Origin: Streptosporangiales bacterium
Lineage (GTDB): Bacteria > Actinomycetota > Actinomycetes > Streptosporangiales > WHST01
Length of the DNA stretch: 48,553 bases
Assembly (NCBI GenBank): GCA_009379955.1
Contig: WHST01000036.1
Location: forward strand, 1 to 48,553
Direction: 5' to 3'
Shown here: piece by piece, positions 25,588 through 35,667 of the stretch
How the letters are laid out: each line of letters starts with the position of its first letter
Position numbering within the stretch: position 1 is the stretch's first letter
Notes under the pieces: generated by a model
The model's database searches: none
Told to the model about the DNA's origin: nothing
The model's input: the letters and a program-made list of their open reading frames with translations, nothing else
Made by a program: the position numbers and the translations under genes

Positions 25588-25950
25588 ATGAAGTACGTCT
25601 TGCTGTTCGTCGAGACGGAGCAGTTCGAGAAGGATCTCGAGGCGATGAGCCACGCCGACCGTGACCGGGCCTCCCAGCTGGCCAACAAGTGGATGGCTGA
25701 CCATGCCGACACGATCCGCGGCGGCAGCAAACTGCAGTCGGCGTCCACCGCGACCACGGTTCGGCTGGACGCCGGCAGCGAGCCGGTCATCACCGACGGC
25801 CCGTTCGTCGAGGGCAAAGAGGTCGTGAGCGGCTACACCGAGGTCGAGGTCGACGATCTCGACCAGGTGCTGAACATGGTCCGAACCTGGCCCGGCTGTC
25901 CTCTCGTGGAGATACGTCCAATCGTGGAGCTACCTCCCGCGCAGTCATGA
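25588..25950 (+). CDS. YCII/DGPF-domain protein
   Basis: 120 residues. It starts with KYVLLFVETEQFEKDLEAM, the first strand-helix of the YCII (dimeric alpha-beta barrel) fold, and carries the eponymous motif TDGPFVEGKEVVSGY. The ATG at 25588 follows GAAGGAG; the open frame continues 11 codons upstream without a site. DGPF proteins are the constant neighbour of ECF42 sigma factors; their biochemical role is unknown. The stop overlaps the sigma gene start (ATGA). Confidence 0.9.
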   Translation: MKYVLLFVETEQFEKDLEAMSHADRDRASQLANKWMADHADTIRGGSKLQSASTATTVRLDAGSEPVITDGPFVEGKEVVSGYTEVEVDDLDQVLNMVRTWPGCPLVEIRPIVELPPAQS

Positions 25951-27185
25951 CCTTCACCATCAAGGGACGGGCCGACGTCGACCGGACCGCTTCAGATCGC
26001 GAGCTCGAACAGATCGTCCGAGAGCACGCGGGCCGCCTGGCGACGGCGCTGATGCGGATCACCGGTGACTTCGCCATGGCCGAGGACCTGGTCCAGGACG
26101 CGGTACTGGCTGCCCTGCAACGGTGGCCGATGGAAGGCGTTCCTGACCGACCGGACGCATGGCTGTTCACCGTCGCCCGCAACCGTGGCCTCGACGCCCT
26201 GCGCCGCCAGAGCAACTACCGCGCCAAACTGGCTCAACTCCGGTGGCCCGTCCAGCCCACCAGCGACGACCGGCTCCGGCTGATCTTCACATGCTGCCAC
26301 CCGGCGCTCTCCCGGCCGGCCCAGATCGTCTTGACCCTGCGCGTCACCTGCGGGCTGACCACGGCGCAGATCGCCCGCGCCCTTCTCGTGCCCGAGACAA
26401 CCGTCGCCCAGCGCATCACGCGCGCCAAACGAAAGATCACCGAGGCGGGTATCCCGTATCGCGTCCCCGATCCGAACGAGCTCGGCGCCCGCTTGCGCGA
26501 AGTGCTTTCGGTCATCTATCTGCTCCTGAACGAGGGCTATCTCTCGACCGGTGAGCGCGGCCAATCACGAGATCTGGTCGATGACGCCGAATGGCTGGCC
26601 GCCCAGCTCTACGACCTGATGCCGACCGAGCCCGAGGTTGCCGGCCTCCTGGCACTGATTCGATTGCACCGAGCGCGCGCCGACGCCAGATTCGACCCCG
26701 GCGGAAACCTCGTGCTGCTCGAGCATCAGGATCGCTCGAACTGGGACCACGAGGCCATCGCCGCCGCATCTCGACTGCTCGCGCGAGCAGCGAAGCGCCA
26801 CCAACCCGGGCCCTACCAGCTCCAGGCGGCGATCGTCGCCTGCCACGCCGAGGCTGCCGACTGGGCCGATACCGACTGGGAACAGATCGGGCTGCTCTAC
26901 GACATGCTCGTGCACCTTGCGCCCTCGCCCCTCACCCGGCTGCACCGGTCCATCGCACGGCGCTACACCGCCGGGCCGGAAGCCGCCCTTGCCGAGGTCG
27001 ACGCCCTCGCCACGGCCCTCGACCGCTACCACCTCTACCACGCGATCCGGGCCGACCTGCTCCGGACCTTGGGCCGCGCGGATGAGGCCCGGGCAGCTAA
27101 CCGACGCGCCCTCGAACTCACGGCCAACCCCGCTGAGCAGGCCCTGCTCCGGCGAAGGATCGATTGGGGCGACGATGCCGGCTGA
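25947..27185 (+). CDS. ECF sigma factor with TPR-like C-terminal extension (ECF42 group)
   Basis: 412 residues. Sigma region 2 (about 15-85) contains ATALMRITGDFAMAEDLVQD and AWLFTVARNRGLDALRRQ; region 4 (about 115-165) contains LRVTCGLTTAQIARALLVPE then TTVAQRITRAKRKI. A helical extension of about 240 residues with repeat-like helix pairs follows (LNEGYLS, YDLMPTEPEVAGLLALIRLH, YQLQAAIVACHAEA, HLYHAIRADLLRTLGRADEA). That architecture and the DGPF neighbour define ECF42, which has no anti-sigma factor; the C-terminal domain is thought to control activity. It overlaps the next gene by 11 nt. Confidence 0.92.
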   Translation: MTFTIKGRADVDRTASDRELEQIVREHAGRLATALMRITGDFAMAEDLVQDAVLAALQRWPMEGVPDRPDAWLFTVARNRGLDALRRQSNYRAKLAQLRWPVQPTSDDRLRLIFTCCHPALSRPAQIVLTLRVTCGLTTAQIARALLVPETTVAQRITRAKRKITEAGIPYRVPDPNELGARLREVLSVIYLLLNEGYLSTGERGQSRDLVDDAEWLAAQLYDLMPTEPEVAGLLALIRLHRARADARFDPGGNLVLLEHQDRSNWDHEAIAAASRLLARAAKRHQPGPYQLQAAIVACHAEAADWADTDWEQIGLLYDMLVHLAPSPLTRLHRSIARRYTAGPEAALAEVDALATALDRYHLYHAIRADLLRTLGRADEARAANRRALELTANPAEQALLRRRIDWGDDAG

Positions 27186-27501
27186 CGACCAGAAGCGTTC
27201 TATCCAGGAGCACCTCGTGAACCGCATATTGCACGGATCCGGCCGAGCGCCGGCGGATCAACGCGCCCGAGCCTTCGACAACGCCGAGCTCTCCGAACCG
27301 CTCCGCCCGTTGCTCGACAAGGTTGCCACCAAGTCCGCTCAGGTCACCGACGCGGACTTCGCCACGGCGATGGAAGCGGGCTTCACTGATGACCAGCTCT
27401 TCGAGCTCGTGATCTGCGCCGCGGTCGGCCAGTCGACTCGGCAGTACGAAGCCGGCCTGGCCGCCTTGGCCGAGGCGATCGCGAACACGGAGACCGGATA
27501 G
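27175..27501 (+). CDS. AhpD-like helical protein, no CxxC
   Basis: 108 residues. Helical, with the pattern LLDKVATKSAQVTDADFATA and DDQLFELVICAAVGQSTRQY then LAALAEAI, which resembles one half of carboxymuconolactone-decarboxylase/AhpD proteins but lacks the redox CxxC. It probably acts as a partner of the next protein, which has the CxxC. The ATG at 27175 lies inside the sigma factor's last codons; the stop TAG shares its G with the GTG of the next gene. No independent function can be assigned. Confidence 0.7.
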   Translation: MPADDQKRSIQEHLVNRILHGSGRAPADQRARAFDNAELSEPLRPLLDKVATKSAQVTDADFATAMEAGFTDDQLFELVICAAVGQSTRQYEAGLAALAEAIANTETG

Positions 27502-28082
27502 TGCGGCCCCGTGTCCTCGACCACGGCTATGGCGTGGGACAGAAGCTGCTCTTCAGGCTGATTCGATTGATGTCCGGTCACCCGGTCCCGGATGCGGCCA
27601 AGATCACTTTCTACCGACCGGACTTCTACGGCACCCACGCGAAGAAGTTCACCCAGGAGGCAATGCGCGGCCGCTCGACATGGTCGGTTGGAGACCGAGA
27701 GCTGATGGCGGCCTACGTATCCACAGTGAATGACTGCCCGTTCTGCGTCGGCGCGCACACCGCGACCGCAACACAGGCCTACCAGGATCGGGAAAGGGTG
27801 GCCGCCGTACTCGCCGATCTCGACTTCGCCCCCATAGACGAAGGGCTCCGGGCAACGCTAGGGATGCTCGGCAAGCTGACCCGCGAAGGCACGCTGAGTG
27901 CCGACGACATCCGAGCCGTGCTCTCCGCCGGAGTCTCGCACCAGCAGATCGAGGACGCGCTCGCCGTCAGCTTCGCCTTCAACACGACCGACCGCCTCGC
28001 CAACGCGTTTGCCTTCGACGTGCTCAGTCAGGAAGGCTTCGAGGCGGGCGCGAAATATCTCCTCAAGCGAGGCTACCGATAG
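27501..28082 (+). CDS. AhpD/CMD-family peroxidase-related protein
   Basis: 193 residues. The carboxymuconolactone-decarboxylase-like fold has the redox site CPFCVGAHT near residue 78 (CxxC followed by His three residues on), as in AhpD, where Glu-Cys-Cys-His relays electrons to peroxide reduction. The upstream ELMAAYVSTVND provides the acidic residue. It is the last gene of the DGPF-sigma operon, which suggests the sigma responds to oxidative or electrophile stress. The C-terminus overlaps the end of the convergent NurA-like gene by 20 nt. Confidence 0.85.
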   Translation: MRPRVLDHGYGVGQKLLFRLIRLMSGHPVPDAAKITFYRPDFYGTHAKKFTQEAMRGRSTWSVGDRELMAAYVSTVNDCPFCVGAHTATATQAYQDRERVAAVLADLDFAPIDEGLRATLGMLGKLTREGTLSADDIRAVLSAGVSHQQIEDALAVSFAFNTTDRLANAFAFDVLSQEGFEAGAKYLLKRGYR

Positions 28083-29040
28083 GTTCGCGTTCGGCGGCCG
28101 CGGCACGCAGTCCCCGTCGCAGCAGCCGCACGTCGCCGAGGCGGGAACGCAGCAGGCGTTCGAGTCCCGCGATCGGGACGAGGTTCTGCGGGGCGCGCGG
28201 CTCCCTGAACTCGCGGCTCGCGAACCTCGGTAGCGTCGCGGCCGAGGTGTCGGCGAGCGCGATCGCGTCGGCCGCGGTGAGCTCCGCGGCGCACTCGACC
28301 CGCACGATGCCTGCCCACGGTGGGCCGCCGGGTCCCGGCAGGCGCAGGTACCAGGCGTGCCGCTTCCAGCTCGTGCCCATCGTGAACACGGGCGTGCGCT
28401 GGGCGGGTTCGAGGTCGGCGACGACGGGATCGAGCTCGACCGGCAGGTAACGGCGCTCCTGGCTCTTCACGTAGCCGAGGGTGCGCGGCAGGTGGGCACG
28501 TCCGCGCAGCGGGCCGTCGACGACGAGCACGTCGTCACCGTCGTCCGGCAGCTCCGCCCGCGCGAGCTCGGCGGCGACGAGCTCGGTCGCGCCGAGCTGC
28601 GCCTGGACGGCGGCGCGGAGCAGGTCGGGATCGCCCGGCTCGCCCCCGACCCGGCGCGCCGGGTAGGTCACCCCGGCGGTGCCCGGCAGCCGCACGTCGG
28701 TCGCGGCCGGGCTCGCCGAGAACAGTCCGCGGCGCACGACCTGCTCGACGACCCGGGCGGTGCCGTCGCAGCGGACCACGCCGGCGGCGTACGACGAGCA
28801 GAGTCCCGGGTGCGCGGCATTGTCGTCACCGACGATCCAGACGTTCGCGTCGAGCCGCCGGACGCCGTCGACGAACGACACCGTCGGCGCGGGACGCGTG
28901 CCGGCGGGCACCGGCAGCGGCTCCCAGTCGCCGGGTTCGCGCTCGACCGCGAGGTCGAGCTCCAGCCCGGCCTCGGGCTCGTCGGGAGCGTCGAAGCCGG
29001 TGCCGTACGCCGGTTCCCAGGCGTCGACGTGCAGGCGCAT
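28063..29040 (-). CDS. nurA: Probable NurA-type nuclease
   Basis: 325 residues. NurA is the single-strand endo-/5'-3' exonuclease that works inside the HerA ring during end resection. Family marks: TVSFVDGVRRLDANVWIV (Asp58, motif I, a metal ligand), VLVVDGPLRG (Asp175, motif with DGPL) and the following GYVKSQERRYLP (residues 189-200), then a C-terminal helix rich in Asp/Ala and FREPRAPQNLVPIAGLERLL. Length fits NurA. Overall similarity is recognised by these motifs and by the neighbours SbcC, SbcD and HerA; no search was run. Ten bases separate it from sbcC on the same strand, with GGGGAGAAGG as ribosome site. Confidence 0.65.
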   Translation of the reverse strand: MRLHVDAWEPAYGTGFDAPDEPEAGLELDLAVEREPGDWEPLPVPAGTRPAPTVSFVDGVRRLDANVWIVGDDNAAHPGLCSSYAAGVVRCDGTARVVEQVVRRGLFSASPAATDVRLPGTAGVTYPARRVGGEPGDPDLLRAAVQAQLGATELVAAELARAELPDDGDDVLVVDGPLRGRAHLPRTLGYVKSQERRYLPVELDPVVADLEPAQRTPVFTMGTSWKRHAWYLRLPGPGGPPWAGIVRVECAAELTAADAIALADTSAATLPRFASREFREPRAPQNLVPIAGLERLLRSRLGDVRLLRRGLRAAAAEREPIGSLA

Positions 29041-29050
29041 CCTTCTCCCC

Positions 29051-31513
29051 TCAGCTCACCCGGTGGACCCGAGCCGTGCGAGCGTCCTTGCTCAGCTCGA
29101 ACCGCACCGGGACGCGCTCGGCGAGCGCGGGCACGTGCGTGACGACGCCGACGACGCGGTCGCCGCGCGCCGCGAGGTTCTCCAGCGTGGCGGCGACGGT
29201 CTCCAGCGTGGTGGCATCGAGGGTGCCGAAGCCCTCGTCGAGCAGGATCGACTCCAGCGCGGCGGTCGTGCTCGACATGCCGGCGAGCTGTTCCGACAGG
29301 GCGAGCGCGAGCGCGAGCGAGGCCTGGAACGTCTCGCCGCCCGACAGGGTGCGGACCGGGCGCCGCAGATCGGCGTCGTGGTGGTCGAGGACGTAGAACT
29401 CGCCGGACTCGTGTCCCAGCTCGTACTGCCCGCCGCTCAGCTCGGCGAGGTTGCGCGACGCGCCCTCGACGAGGGTGTCGAGCGCCTCCTCCAGCAGCCA
29501 GCGCTCGAAGTTGTTGGCGCGCAGGTGGTCGGCGAGCCCCTTGGCCACGCGCGCGGTGGTCGTGTGGCGGTCGCGCTCCTCCCGCTGCTGGCTGACCTGG
29601 GCGAGGCGTTCGACGAGGCGCTGGTGCGCACTCTCGGCCTGGGTGGCGGCGACCGCGACGGCGGTGGTGAGGCCGCTCGCGTCGGCGGTGTCCGGTGCCT
29701 CGAGGTCGTGCTCGGCGAGCAGATCGCGCAACGCCGTGCGAATGCGGGTGACCTCCGCCTCCGCCCGCTCCACGGCCGCCCGTCGCTCGGGTAGCTCGTC
29801 GCGGCGCGCGGACGCGGTGTCGAGCGACCATGCGACGAGCTCCGACCACGCCGTGTCGAGTGCGTCGCGGTCGAGGACTGGTGGACCGTACGCGGCGAGA
29901 TGGTCACGGGCAGCGGCCAGCCTGGTCCACGACTCGCGCGCGCTCTCGGCCGCGCGCTGCTGGTGCTGCTGCGCGCGCTGGTGCGCCTGCCGCGCGTCGC
30001 GCACGGCCACGCCCGTCGCACGCCACCGCTGCCGCAGCTCGTCGGCCCTGGCGAGGAGCCGCTCGACGTCGGCGCGCTCGCCGTGGTCGGCGACGAGCGC
30101 ACGTGCCTGCGTCAGCGCGGCGTCGTGGTCGTCGAGGCGGGCACGCGCGGTGGCGTGCCGTCGTTCGGCGTCGTGGAGGGTCTTGGCGGCGGACACCTCG
30201 GCGGTGCGCGCCGCGGCGAGCGCCTTCTCGGCGGCGCGCAGCGCGGTGGCGTCGACCGGTGGCGGCAGTGCGCCGACGTCCTGCTCGCACACGGGACACG
30301 GTTCGCCGGCGACGAGATGCGGCCGCAGCGCGCCGGCGAGCTCACCGCGCTGGGCGTCGGCGTGGGCGAGCTCCGCTTCGGCCAGCCGGTCGCCGGCGGA
30401 CCCGTGCGCCGTACGCGCCGCGGTCACCTCGCCCGCGACGGTGCCCACCTCGGCGGTGAGCCGCTCGTGGCGGGTGGTCAGCTCGGCGAGCCGGTCGTAC
30501 GCCTCGAGCACCCGCCGCAGCTCGGCGGGATCAGCGGACTCCTCGGCGGCCACCCGCGCCTCGTCCTCGGCCGCCTCTGCCTCGGCGAGGCCGGTCTCGG
30601 TGGCCGCCACGGCCTCGGCGGCGTCGCCGAGATGGGCGGCCGTCGACGCGACGTCGTCGGGTACGCGCGCGGCGCCGAGCACCTCGACGGCCCGCTCGAG
30701 CTCGCCGAGGACGTGGCGGGCATCGGCGGTGGTCTCCTGTGCCCCGGCGAGCGCGGGCGCCTCGGCGTCGACGCGCTCGCGCAGCGCGCGGAGGCGTTGC
30801 GTCCGCGCGGCGGCCTCGTCGACGGCCGCGGGGTCGACGTCGCCGAGCGAGCCGAGCAGGCCTTGCGCGGCCTCGGCCCGCGCTGCGGAGTCACGGGCGA
30901 CCTCGCCCGCCCGGGTGGCGATGCGCCGGTAGACGTGCAGGCCGAGCAGGTTGACCAGGATGTCGCCGCGCTCGCTCGGCTTGGCGTGCAGGAACTGCGC
31001 GAACTCGCCCTGCGGCAGCACCACGCAGGTGACGAAGTGGTCGTACGGCAGGCCGAGCACCCGGGGGACGGCGGTGTCCATCTCCTTCGGCGTGGCCGCG
31101 AGCACCTCGCCGAGCACGGCGTCGGTCGCCTCGGTCTCGTCGCTCACGTCCTTGTCGAGGCTGGCGAGGTCGGCGTCGGCGGCGAGCCGCTGCAGGCCGG
31201 CCAGCGAGGTCTTGACCCGTCCCTTGCCGTCGCGGGTCACGACGCGGCTGGCGACGTAGCGCGTGCCGGCCGCCTCGAACACCAGGCGCACCCTGGCCTG
31301 CGAGCTCGACGGCGCCAGCGCGCCTGCGACGCTGCGCTGGTCGGCCCATCGCGGCACCGTGCCGTACAGGGCGAAGCAGATCGCGTCGAGGAGCGTCGAC
31401 TTGCCCGAGCCCGTCGGGCCGACGAGGGCGAAGAAGTCGGCGTCGGTGAAGTCGACGGTGCACGCGTCGCGGAAGACCGTGAAGCCCTCGAGATCGAGTC
31501 GCAACGGACGCAA
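29051..31513 (-). CDS. sbcC: SbcC/Rad50 SMC-like ATPase
   Basis: 820 residues, on the short side for SbcC. Walker A GPTGSGKST is at residues 32-40 (Lys38), Q-loop VVLPQGEFAQFL with Gln168, a long coiled coil broken by the zinc hook CPVC at 406-409, signature LSGGE at about 723-727, Walker B ILLDEGFGTLD with Asp759/Glu760, and a D-loop and H-loop in VVGVVTHVPAL. It forms a complex with SbcD (Mre11) that opens blocked or hairpin DNA ends. The start is TTG at 31513 with GGAGG 9 nt upstream. Its partner sbcD is not adjacent: 1145 bp with an opposite-strand GNAT gene intervene. Confidence 0.93.
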   Translation of the reverse strand: MRPLRLDLEGFTVFRDACTVDFTDADFFALVGPTGSGKSTLLDAICFALYGTVPRWADQRSVAGALAPSSSQARVRLVFEAAGTRYVASRVVTRDGKGRVKTSLAGLQRLAADADLASLDKDVSDETEATDAVLGEVLAATPKEMDTAVPRVLGLPYDHFVTCVVLPQGEFAQFLHAKPSERGDILVNLLGLHVYRRIATRAGEVARDSAARAEAAQGLLGSLGDVDPAAVDEAAARTQRLRALRERVDAEAPALAGAQETTADARHVLGELERAVEVLGAARVPDDVASTAAHLGDAAEAVAATETGLAEAEAAEDEARVAAEESADPAELRRVLEAYDRLAELTTRHERLTAEVGTVAGEVTAARTAHGSAGDRLAEAELAHADAQRGELAGALRPHLVAGEPCPVCEQDVGALPPPVDATALRAAEKALAAARTAEVSAAKTLHDAERRHATARARLDDHDAALTQARALVADHGERADVERLLARADELRQRWRATGVAVRDARQAHQRAQQHQQRAAESARESWTRLAAARDHLAAYGPPVLDRDALDTAWSELVAWSLDTASARRDELPERRAAVERAEAEVTRIRTALRDLLAEHDLEAPDTADASGLTTAVAVAATQAESAHQRLVERLAQVSQQREERDRHTTTARVAKGLADHLRANNFERWLLEEALDTLVEGASRNLAELSGGQYELGHESGEFYVLDHHDADLRRPVRTLSGGETFQASLALALALSEQLAGMSSTTAALESILLDEGFGTLDATTLETVAATLENLAARGDRVVGVVTHVPALAERVPVRFELSKDARTARVHRVS

Positions 31514-31546
31514 CGAACGGCACCTCCACCTGGCAGGCTAATCGAC

Positions 31547-32677
31547 GTGAACGCCTTTCCCATGGAGGACGTGCCGGGCGACCGCGTCGTCCTGCGGCAC
31601 CCACGGCCGGCCGACGTCGACGATCTCGTCGCGGTCGTGGACGACCCGCTGGTCAGGCGGTTCGTGCCGGCCCTGCCGGTGCCGTACACCCGTGCCGACG
31701 CCGAGCGGTGGGTCACCGAGACCGTGCCGGCCGCGTGGGCGGCGGGCGACGCGTGGTTCGCGGTGACCGAGCCGGGCGACGGCCGACTGGTGGGTCAGGT
31801 GGGCGTGTTCGGCGCGTCCGCGTACGACGTGGCCTCGACCGGTTACCTGATCGGTGCGGCGTACCGCGGCCGTGGGCTCGCCACCGCCGCGGTCCGGGCG
31901 GTCACCGACTGGGCGTTCGGCCATGGTGTGGCCCGGCTGGAGCTCGAGACCGACGTCGACAACGTCGCGAGCCAGCATGTGGCCCACGCCGCGGGCTACC
32001 GCCGCGAGTGCGTCCGCAGGGGAGCCGGTGCCCGTCGCGACGGCGGGCGCCGTGACCTCGTGGCCTTTGCCCGGCTGGCGGGCGATCCCGCGGGACCCGT
32101 CGCCCGCCTGCTGCCCGACCTGCCGTGCGGCGAGCTGTCCGACGGCGTGGTCACGCTGCGACCGCTCGTTGCCGACGACACCGCCTCGCTGCACCGGCTG
32201 TCCGGGCTGCCCGACGTCGTGGCCACCCGGGTGCCGCCGGAGGCGATGTCCGAGGAGGAGGCCCGAGGGCGGTGCACGAGCGCGGTCGCCGACTGGATCG
32301 CGGGCGACCTGGCGCAGCTCGCGATCCGCGACGCGTCGTCGGGGGAGTTCCTCGGGGAGATCAGCCTGCACTACCAGGCGCCCCGGCTCGGGCAGGCGAT
32401 GCTCGGCTACGCAATGCTCCCCGAGCACCGCCGCCGCGGCCACGTCGGCCGGGCGATCGACCTGGTCGCCGGCTGGGCGTTCGACTCGGTGGGGATCGTC
32501 CGGGTGACCGCCGGCACGCACGCCGGCAACGCTGCCTCGCAGCGGACGCTCGAACGCGCCGGCTTCTCGCGGGAGGGCGTACAGCGCCACCTGCTCCCGA
32601 ACGCCGACGGCACCCGCACCGACAACGTCATGTTCGTCCGGCTGCGGACCGACCGGCGTCAGCTGACCTCGTCGTAG
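31547..32677 (+). CDS. Protein with two GNAT acetyltransferase domains
   Basis: 376 residues, two RimJ/RimL-like N-acetyltransferase domains in tandem. Domain 1 (about 10-170): VVLRHPRPADVDDLVAVVDD, and the acetyl-CoA loop AYRGRGLATAAVRAVTDWAF, then RLELETDVDNVASQHVAHAA. Domain 2 (about 195-370): VVTLRPLVADDTASLHRLSG, PEHRRRGHVGRAIDLVAGWAF and RVTAGTHAGNAASQRTLERA. Both pyrophosphate-binding (R/Q-x-x-G-x-G/A) loops look intact. The substrate is unknown; related proteins acetylate protein N-termini or aminoglycosides. The start is GTG at 31547 (ATG at 31562 possible). Its 3' end overlaps that of sbcD by 19 nt and it is antisense to the cluster. Confidence 0.83.
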   Translation: MNAFPMEDVPGDRVVLRHPRPADVDDLVAVVDDPLVRRFVPALPVPYTRADAERWVTETVPAAWAAGDAWFAVTEPGDGRLVGQVGVFGASAYDVASTGYLIGAAYRGRGLATAAVRAVTDWAFGHGVARLELETDVDNVASQHVAHAAGYRRECVRRGAGARRDGGRRDLVAFARLAGDPAGPVARLLPDLPCGELSDGVVTLRPLVADDTASLHRLSGLPDVVATRVPPEAMSEEEARGRCTSAVADWIAGDLAQLAIRDASSGEFLGEISLHYQAPRLGQAMLGYAMLPEHRRRGHVGRAIDLVAGWAFDSVGIVRVTAGTHAGNAASQRTLERAGFSREGVQRHLLPNADGTRTDNVMFVRLRTDRRQLTSS

Positions 32678-33810
32678 AGGCGCTCGAAGAGGTCCTTGAC
32701 GGCGGTGTCGTCATGTCCGCGCTCCTCGAGGTACGCGGCGAAGAGCTGCCCCGGGGTGCGTCCGGTGCGGACGGCGCGCTGCCGGTCGTCGGAGCCGGCG
32801 ACGAACTCCGGGTCGACGCGCACCTCGAGCGCGTCGGGCAGCAGCTCCTGGACGGCCTCGCGGAGGCCGGCGCGCGGGCGTTCGCGGAGGAGCACGCGCA
32901 GCCACGCGCCCGCGGTGTTGTCGGCCAGTGCGGACACCTCGTCGAGGGTGCCGCGTACGGTGCGCAGCGCCGTGCCCGACGTGATCGGCTCGACGGTGAC
33001 GCGGGCGGGTGTGGCGGGGGCGACGTCGACGAGCAGCACGCCGGCCTCGTTGGCCTCCTCGCCGAAGTCGACCTGCAGCGGGCTGCCCGAGTAGCGGACG
33101 GGACACGGACCGGCAATCTCCTGCTGCCGGTGCAGGTGTCCGAGCGCGACGTAGTGGCACGACGCAGGGAAGACCGAGGCAGGGACGTGGTACGGGAAGA
33201 TCGTGTGGGCGTCGCGTTCGCCGCCGCCGAGCGCACCACCGGAGACCGTGAGGTGGCCGGTGACGAGGTTGACCGCCTGCTCACCGGACTCGAACGGCTC
33301 GGTGAGGCGTTCGACGAGCCGGCGCACCCAGTCGGCGTAGGTCTGCGTCGCCTCGGTGGTGGACAGGTCGAACATCTCCGCCGCGCGCACTGCGTGCCGC
33401 TGCGACAGGAACGGCAGGGCCACGAGCCGCCACGGCTCGCCGTCGCGGGTCTCGCCGGTCAGCAGGTGCTGCTCAGGCCGCGCGGCCACCTGGCCGACGA
33501 GGCGGACGCCCGCGGCGTCGGCCCACGGGCGCAGCGCGTCGATCTGCGCGCCGTTGTCGTGGTTGCCGGCGACGGCGACGACCTCGGCCCCGGTGCGCCG
33601 CAGGGCCGTGAGCGCGCGGGTCACCACCCGGACGGAGTCGGCGGCGGGGGCGGCGGTGTCGTAGAGGTCGCCGGCGACGAGCACCAGGTCGGGGCGCTCG
33701 CGCTCCGCGACGTCGATCACCTCGCGCAGCACGCGCGCGTGCTCCTCGGTACGGGCGCGTCCCTTGAGCACCTTGCCGACGTGCCAGTCGGCCGTGTGCA
33801 GGATCTTCAC
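32659..33810 (-). CDS. sbcD: SbcD/Mre11 nuclease
   Basis: 383 residues, calcineurin-like phosphoesterase fold. All five Mre11 motifs are seen: HTADWHVG (residues 5-12), VAGDLYD, VAGNHD, VTGHLTVSGG and VALGHLHR, with YSGSPLQVDF closing the nuclease domain. The C-terminal capping and SbcC-binding part follows (RTVRGTLDEVSALADN and onward). It makes manganese-dependent double-strand exonuclease and hairpin cuts. Nineteen bases follow herA on the same strand, so both are cotranscribed. It overlaps the convergent GNAT gene at the 3' end. Confidence 0.94.
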   Translation of the reverse strand: MKILHTADWHVGKVLKGRARTEEHARVLREVIDVAERERPDLVLVAGDLYDTAAPAADSVRVVTRALTALRRTGAEVVAVAGNHDNGAQIDALRPWADAAGVRLVGQVAARPEQHLLTGETRDGEPWRLVALPFLSQRHAVRAAEMFDLSTTEATQTYADWVRRLVERLTEPFESGEQAVNLVTGHLTVSGGALGGGERDAHTIFPYHVPASVFPASCHYVALGHLHRQQEIAGPCPVRYSGSPLQVDFGEEANEAGVLLVDVAPATPARVTVEPITSGTALRTVRGTLDEVSALADNTAGAWLRVLLRERPRAGLREAVQELLPDALEVRVDPEFVAGSDDRQRAVRTGRTPGQLFAAYLEERGHDDTAVKDLFERLYDEVS

Positions 33811-33829
33811 GGGCTCCCCTCGCAGGCGG

Positions 33830-35581
33830 TCAGAACGGGATGTCGTCGTCGGTGGTCCTGTCGGTCACCACCGCGAACGGGTCGACGGCCTGCGTCGCGG
33901 AACGCCGCGCCGACGCCGGTGCCGCGCCGGCCTCGGCCGGGCGCGTCGCCCAGGCGGGGAAGGGGAACTCCACGACCAGTGGCACCGGGATCTCCGGCTG
34001 GGAGACGAACATCGTGCCGGGCTTGGCGAGGACGGCACGTGCGCGCTGGGCCGGCGGCAGGAACGCGTACTCCGGGCGCGCGGACTCCGCGGCGTCGAGC
34101 CGACCGACGACGCGTACCGAGGAGTTGGCGATGATGCGGCGCTCCACCTCGGACGCGGTCTGCTGCGCGCCGATCAGGATCACGCCGAGGCTGCGGCCGC
34201 GCTCGGCGATGTCGAGCAGCACCTCCTTGATCGGGCTGCTGCCCTCGCGCGGCGCGTACTTGTTGAGCTCGTCGAGAACGATGAACTGCAGCGCGCGCCC
34301 GGTGGAGCCGCTCTCCTTGGCGTCGAAGAGCTGCTGCAGGGTCACGCCCACCACGAACCGCTGCGCGGTGTCGGGCAGGCTGTGCAGGTCGACGACGGTG
34401 AGCTGCGCGTCGCTGCCGATGACGCCGTGCGGCCGCTTCGCGGTGATGTCGGCGCGGACCAGCCGGTCGAGCGCCCGGCGGCTGGCGAGCAGCCGGCGCA
34501 GGAACGCGTTGACCGTGCCCATCGTCGTCGCGGCGCCCGCCCAGTCGACGCGGGTCGACTCGTCGAGCAGGCGCTCCTGGACGAACGCGACGATGTCGGC
34601 GTACGTGCGCAACAGCTCGCCCTCGACGTGGACCGCGCCCTCCTCGGTGGGCTTGGTGTCGCGCTGGAGCCGGGCGGCGACCTGGTGGACGACCATCGTG
34701 TACTGCTGGCGCTCGTCGTCGACGTCGGCGAAGGCGTACGGCAGCAGCGCCTGCGCGCAGAACTCCGCCGGCGTCCAGTAGAACGCGTCGACCCCGGTGT
34801 CGCGCACCGAGACGTCGGGCTTGCCGGTCGGGTCGCCGCGCAGCGGGGGAGCGAGCACCGCGACCGAGGAGAAGGGTTCCGCCGGCAGCCCGAGCTTGGC
34901 GTACTTGGCGCGCTCGGTGTCGTCGATGCGGGTGTTGGCGTGGTCGAGCAGCAGGAGGTCCTCGCCCTTGACCGAGAAGATCAGGGCCCTGGCGTTGTGC
35001 GCGTTGCCGAGCGCGCCGCCGCGGAACACCGAGTAGAGGAGCCAGGTGGCGAACGAGGTCTTCGTCGCGACGCCGGAGACCCCGGAGATCGAGACGTGCC
35101 CGCCGCGGGTGCCGTCGAGGAAGTCGAGGTCGAGGTAGATCGGCTCGCCGTCGCGACCGGCGCCCAGGGCGACCTTGCGGTCCATCTTGTCGAAGTACAG
35201 CGCCCTGGCTCGCTGCTGCTCGACCGCTCGGCGGACGACGGCGCCCGGACGCGGGGGCACGAACACCTCGGGCTCCACCCGGGTCACCGTGATCTCGGCG
35301 GCCTCCTGTACCTCCGCGGGCAGCATGCCGTCGGAGACGAGGAACACGTCGGAGTCGAACTGCGCCCCCTCGTGCCTGGCCCGCACGGCGGTGACGACGC
35401 CCGCGATCGCGACCGGCTCCCGGCCGGGCAGCTCACGCTCGGTGACCACGATGTCGTCGAGCTGCAGGTAGCTGTCGGGTCGTACCGCGACCCAGAAGTT
35501 CAGCGGGGTGGCGTCGGCGTTGCCCAGGACCCGGCCCACGGGCTCGCCGCCGGTGGGTCTGACCGCACCGTTCCGCTCCAC
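33830..35581 (-). CDS. herA: HerA-like hexameric ATPase (DNA translocase)
   Basis: 583 residues. HerA pumps DNA in the HerA-NurA-Mre11-Rad50 pathway. An N-terminal beta-barrel (HAS-barrel, about 10-115) is followed by the FtsK/HerA ATPase. The P-loop reads GVSGVATKTS (residues 167-176, Lys174): it has one extra residue and Thr instead of the last Gly of GxxGxGKS, though Lys-Thr-Ser is kept. Walker B is FIVLDELNKY (Asp437, Glu438); a sensor/arginine region is in IAERGRSLGVILIGAQQTAS. The GTG at 35581 is chosen because GGGAGG lies 9 nt upstream; the ATG at 35590 directly abuts that site. It heads the transcription unit with sbcD and is divergent from a PEP-mutase-family gene. Confidence 0.8.
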   Translation of the reverse strand: MERNGAVRPTGGEPVGRVLGNADATPLNFWVAVRPDSYLQLDDIVVTERELPGREPVAIAGVVTAVRARHEGAQFDSDVFLVSDGMLPAEVQEAAEITVTRVEPEVFVPPRPGAVVRRAVEQQRARALYFDKMDRKVALGAGRDGEPIYLDLDFLDGTRGGHVSISGVSGVATKTSFATWLLYSVFRGGALGNAHNARALIFSVKGEDLLLLDHANTRIDDTERAKYAKLGLPAEPFSSVAVLAPPLRGDPTGKPDVSVRDTGVDAFYWTPAEFCAQALLPYAFADVDDERQQYTMVVHQVAARLQRDTKPTEEGAVHVEGELLRTYADIVAFVQERLLDESTRVDWAGAATTMGTVNAFLRRLLASRRALDRLVRADITAKRPHGVIGSDAQLTVVDLHSLPDTAQRFVVGVTLQQLFDAKESGSTGRALQFIVLDELNKYAPREGSSPIKEVLLDIAERGRSLGVILIGAQQTASEVERRIIANSSVRVVGRLDAAESARPEYAFLPPAQRARAVLAKPGTMFVSQPEIPVPLVVEFPFPAWATRPAEAGAAPASARRSATQAVDPFAVVTDRTTDDDIPF

Positions 35582-35596
35582 GTTCAGCATCCTCCC

Positions 35597-35625: not shown

Positions 35626-35667
35626 CGCAGGCACTTGCCGATGAGCACAACACAGTAAGGGGATCCG

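Follow-up and report, generated by a model that had tools for sequence, protein, structure and literature searches.

A herA-sbcD-sbcC-nurA cluster with Deinococcus-type HerA and NurA as a candidate DNA end-resection module in Actinomycetota

Accounts of break repair in actinobacteria usually centre on AdnAB, RecO and Ku/LigD. Here, we describe a locus from a Streptosporangiales bacterium (assembly GCA_009379955.1, contig WHST01000036.1; the window is the whole 48,553-nucleotide stretch of it that was analysed) and ask whether it encodes a further machine for trimming broken DNA ends, of which type, and whether that machine would work beside AdnAB or instead of it. Judged from their sequences, herA, sbcD, sbcC and nurA are four neighbouring minus-strand genes in the window for the parts of such a machine (Table 1). 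A sequence-only reading had equated them with the archaeal end-resection operon; the same four-gene membership holds, with real homologues, but HerA and NurA are of the Deinococcus type and the cluster is split by an antisense gene. We consider it likely that the locus is a bacterial double-strand-break end-resection module, combining a Deinococcus-type HerA-NurA pair with a dedicated SbcCD lineage and standing beside AdnAB.

Gene content and an antisense insertion

All four open reading frames were found on the minus strand at the positions given by the sequence-only reading, with clean translations; the open frame of herA reaches further, to a GTG at 35653.

Table 1. Genes of the cluster and the gene that interrupts it, in window coordinates
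Gene	Position	Strand	Product and best evidence
herA	33830..35581	-	Deinococcus-type HerA hexameric DNA translocase (predicted), 583 aa; phmmer 1e-140 to 7f6d_B
sbcD	32659..33810	-	Mre11-type nuclease, herA-linked lineage; TIGR00619 5e-52
GNAT acetyltransferase gene, double-domain	31562..32677	+	Pfam Acetyltransf_3 6e-50, 2 stretches
sbcC	29051..31513	-	Rad50-type ABC ATPase, CPVC zinc hook at residue 406; TIGR00618 3.7e-77
nurA	28063..29040	-	NurA nuclease, RNase H-like fold (predicted), 325 residues; phmmer 1.9e-18 to drNurA

The GNAT gene occupies the space from sbcC to sbcD in antisense orientation: it converges on sbcD, sharing 19 bases with it, and is divergent from sbcC. In two genus-mates, G002 and G004, the sbcD-sbcC junction measures about 88 bp and has no GNAT gene, and their GNAT relatives are distant ones located elsewhere in the genome. 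Of the three genomes compared, the insertion is private to this one; it interrupts the cluster and does not belong to it. With sbcD separated from sbcC in this way, the window copy is not one uninterrupted operon, and sbcC-nurA would need a promoter of its own, or transcription would have to run antisense through the GNAT gene. This break in any single transcript counts against the resection-module reading in the window's organism.

A minus-strand open reading frame at 31538-32590 was rejected as a fifth cluster gene, as it matches no family and the genuine coding sequence at that place is the plus-strand GNAT gene; long plus-strand frames across sbcC and herA were read as shadows of the coding strand. 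Beyond nurA, an ECF-type sigma factor gene with DUF6596 (25947-27185, plus strand) is followed by a carboxymuconolactone decarboxylase-family gene (27501-28082, plus strand), whose end shares 20 bases with the end of nurA.

Identity of HerA, NurA and the linked SbcCD

The assignment of HerA made in the sequence-only reading was borne out by a phmmer search of PDB sequences, in which the match to D. radiodurans HerA (drHerA, 7f6d_B) has 51% identity within the alignment and spans the whole length, taking in the HAS barrel, the RecA-like ATPase, Walker A and B, the trans Arg and the TR-motif Arg. Pfam and NCBIfam gave weak scores alone and PADLOC matches were likewise weak; no archaeal HerA was found at E<=1 among the PDB sequences searched. 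Residues K175, T176, D487, E488, R495, R513 and R552 of drHerA are all conserved, and those that matter for ATPase or translocation (K175, D487/E488, R495 and R552; PMC9960219) correspond to K174, D437/E438, R445 and R502 of the window protein. Across 97 relatives, K174/T175 (Walker A), catalytic D208, D437/E438 (Walker B), R445, R463 and R502 are near-invariant, with one R445K the sole exception at K174, D437/E438, R445 and R502. The acidic residues by which drHerA contacts NurA align poorly outside Deinococcus (PMC9960219); of D78, E80 and D81, the window HerA keeps D78 and has F and L at the other two positions.

NurA had been the weakest call, and its identity was settled by the search of PDB sequences after Pfam, NCBIfam and PADLOC alone had proved insufficient. 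The Pfam NurA model PF09376 gave E 0.064 and 13.2 bits against a 21-bit cut-off, a Pfam search for NurA across the whole genome found nothing, and neither NCBIfam nor PADLOC yielded a NurA match; phmmer aligned residues 1-313 with D. radiodurans NurA (drNurA, 7f6d_H). An AlphaFold2 model (13-row alignment, pLDDT 86.9, pTM 0.85) was compared with PDB structures using Foldseek, a check on the fold that had been suggested for this protein, and matched drNurA best (7f6d_G, 7e-17, TM 0.71), followed by Thermotoga TM1739 (1zup, 5e-13) and, at 2.5e-5, one chain of TdpAB (8wfd). In drNurA, cutting requires D53, K201 and R309, and efficient resection requires W8 (PMC9960219); these correspond to D58, K192, R282 and W8 of the window protein, all invariant in 87 sequences. 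The DG motifs on which the original call had relied contain D58, the counterpart of catalytic D53, and D175 (D184 in drNurA), both likewise invariant. By homology the protein is a true NurA, with an RNase H-like fold in its predicted structure, and with HerA it is of the bacterial Deinococcus type, not the archaeal type. Mn-dependent 5'-3' nuclease activity and a dimeric state are predicted by analogy with drNurA.

SbcD and SbcC, which the sequence-only reading had regarded as certain, were both recognized by NCBIfam models. SbcD scores above the cut-off of its family and has all five phosphoesterase motifs; SbcC scores 260 bits, under the family cut-off of 478 bits, and its Walker A, CPVC hook, LSGGE and Walker B motifs were located (at 32, 406, 723 and 757). 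In a tree whose canonical rows were drawn from one family only, herA-linked SbcD and the usual SbcD of Streptosporangiales form separate groups (branch 1.76, support 100/100), and across 151 genomes of the order cluster-type SbcD scores at least 297 bits and other SbcD at most 144 bits. By these sequence comparisons, the SbcD proteins encoded with herA form a lineage apart from the SbcD usual in actinobacteria. Relatives that bear the cluster mostly have both types. Only the cluster SbcD and SbcC were found in the window's genome, with no further SbcC match; the assembly is 97.4% complete, so a second SbcCD copy may have been missed.

Linkage, distribution and genomic setting

Conserved linkage of the four genes, proposed with the original reading as a check on it, was surveyed at three levels. 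Among 151 Streptosporangiales genomes, 36 have NurA relatives, 35 of these have full-length HerA, and cluster-type SbcD occurs in exactly those 35; in the 36th (G129) the contig stops inside the cluster. Nineteen loci of the order were fetched, and all 16 that are uncut read herA-sbcD-sbcC-nurA on one strand. In 80 named Actinomycetota loci (Micromonosporaceae, Glycomycetaceae and MAGs), the cluster is complete in this order in 69 and cut by contig ends in 10, and the last (L056) lacks the other genes in 6 kb downstream; median intergenic gaps of 18, 9 and 20 bp in these 80 suggest an operon in the relatives. Across the phylum, HerA of the window type occurs in 76 of 396 sampled genomes, about one fifth, and all four genes are present in 31 of the 36 loci that were read; two of the remainder (L167 and L169) have HerA alone in the stretch read and three reach contig ends. 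These loci show two gene orders, herA-sbcD-sbcC-nurA and nurA-herA-sbcD-sbcC, and in the HerA tree the nurA-first loci fall on one side of a single branch (88/83). A fifth conserved partner was sought in the flanks of the 36 phylum loci and no general family was found.

The sub-threshold Pfam score and the empty whole-genome Pfam search for NurA are what four unrelated repair genes, neighbours by chance and with a 325-residue protein that is not NurA, would lead one to expect. This explanation is refuted by the full-length and fold matches to drNurA together with the recurrent linkage and co-occurrence, and we give it practically no credence. As the four-gene set recurs across Actinomycetota, it is a real module passed on by inheritance rather than a grouping by chance.

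The setting of the cluster bears on whether it might serve defence, with HerA-NurA and SbcCD degrading phage or plasmid DNA in the manner of HerA-nuclease or NurA-like (TdpAB) defence pairs. A Streptomyces plasmid (L220, NZ_CP134205.1 412748-430349) carries a full herA-sbcD-sbcC-nurA cluster adjoining an ImmA/IrrE gene and TIGR02678/TIGR02680/DUF2397 genes, which we take to be Wadjet-type, and a cyanobacterial conjugative plasmid (L222, AP018315.1 38016-55695) has the genes in the order nurA-herA-sbcD-sbcC, which shows that the module also exists outside Actinomycetota. The patchy distribution within the order, flanks that differ between genera and the TdpAB match of the NurA model would also suit such a role; the first two of these also weigh against the resection-module reading. 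Against it, about 65 of 92 loci, essentially those of Micromonosporaceae and Glycomycetaceae, share upstream flanking gene content, which places the module at a fixed chromosomal position in these families; the window neighbours are metabolic or regulatory genes; PADLOC gave the poor results described above; and mobile DNA accounted for no more than four plasmid records and two partial phage matches. Genes for end joining also adjoin the cluster in other lineages: family f19 has Ku, LigD polymerase and ligase genes there, f44 and f48 have Ku, and Dactylosporangium has a ligase gene. On balance, we regard defence as an unlikely main role and retain end resection as the preferred one.

End-joining neighbours occur in several separate actinobacterial lineages, and in some lineages only. 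Ku, LigD polymerase or ATP-dependent ligase genes were observed beside the herA cluster at L166-L169, L186, L188, L199 and L117/L123/L132. At two of the f19 loci, L167 and L169, HerA has no NurA, SbcD or SbcC nearby, and its neighbours are Ku, LigD polymerase and ligase genes.

Proposed function and known systems

In the proposed resection pathway, SbcC-SbcD (Rad50-Mre11) would recognize and open blocked or hairpin ends, a HerA hexamer would pump the duplex into a NurA dimer, the dimer would split the duplex and cut the 5' strand, and the 3' tail left behind would pass to RecA. For the Deinococcus relative, the HerA hexamer, the HerA6-NurA2 complex and translocation-coupled 5' resection are established (PMC9960219), whereas the hand-over from Mre11-Rad50 to HerA-NurA was proposed from archaea and is still unclear there (PMC8708640). 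Stimulation or binding of HerA-NurA by Mre11-Rad50 has been shown in the literature for archaea. By analogy with these systems, we infer that the window HerA and NurA would form a complex, that SbcCD would hand over ends to it and that recombination would be its role in vivo. The replacement of contact acids E80 and D81 may count against a working HerA6-NurA2 complex here.

The window's genome also has Ku and, at C52, a tandem gene pair in which both proteins have UvrD helicase and PDDEXK_1 nuclease domains, the architecture of AdnAB. The module would accordingly act beside AdnAB and end joining rather than replacing them; of the earlier suggestion that it works in parallel with or in place of AdnAB/RecBCD, the parallel role is favoured and replacement of AdnAB is not supported, given the tandem pair.

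A resection route already offered by AdnAB-type proteins is also compatible with a set for fork and hairpin processing or anti-recombination, in which SbcCD would remove hairpins and HerA-NurA would degrade ends or reversed forks, limiting recombination. SbcCD is known for palindrome elimination (PMC2288612), and D. radiodurans lacking nurA-herA withstood UV and mitomycin C better (PMC9960219), which makes a pro-repair role less than certain. The biochemistry of drNurA-HerA, however, yields recombinogenic 3' tails (PMC9960219), and intermolecular recombination in D. radiodurans fell about 10-fold when nurA or herA was lost, as cited in PMC5448004. We rate this explanation as improbable, slightly more so than defence, and continue to favour end resection.

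More tentatively, and with somewhat less than even confidence, many Actinomycetota might possess, alongside AdnAB, a second resection machine that is complete in its parts. Its SbcCD lineage would be its own, distinct from the usual cellular SbcCD, and the four proteins would act as one stable or hand-over complex; in some lineages its placement by Ku and LigD would serve to balance recombination against end joining. Co-inherited HerA-NurA-SbcCD at the frequency sampled here would add a parallel resection route to these bacteria and would offer mesophilic bacteria for testing an archaeal-style hand-over from Mre11-Rad50 to HerA-NurA. Family-based surveys can miss such NurA proteins, since PF09376 scores the window NurA below its cut-off, and the nurA of the Streptomyces plasmid cluster is annotated as 'hypothetical protein' in its RefSeq record.

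Bacterial HerA-NurA is already known from the Deinococcus structure, and a review mentions HerA and NurA homologues in Actinobacteria (PMC8708640). No description of the actinobacterial four-gene module was found in the part of the literature searched, within which its spread over the phylum and its separate SbcCD lineage appear to be unreported. AdnAB shares the expected task of break-end resection and is an unrelated machine in which UvrD helicases are fused with PDDEXK nucleases; its genes lie elsewhere in the genome. The archaeal herA-mre11-rad50-nurA operon (PMC2288612) unites the same four functions in one cluster, but HerA and NurA here are far from the archaeal sequences and their Mre11/Rad50 partners are bacterial SbcD/SbcC. 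Another bacterium, Oceanithermus profundus, also groups these four genes, as nurA-hepA-sbcD-sbcC (noted in PMC5448004); this is a single organism, and nurA comes first and not last, an order also seen in other actinobacterial lineages. D. radiodurans NurA-HerA (7F6D, 7WRW and 7WRX; PMC9960219) resembles the window pair in both sequence families, in catalytic and translocation residues, in the unusual GVATKT Walker A and in the NurA fold; it differs in that PMC9960219 handles nurA and herA as an operon and describes no linkage to sbcCD, and in the interface acids E80 and D81 of drHerA, which are not conserved in actinobacteria.
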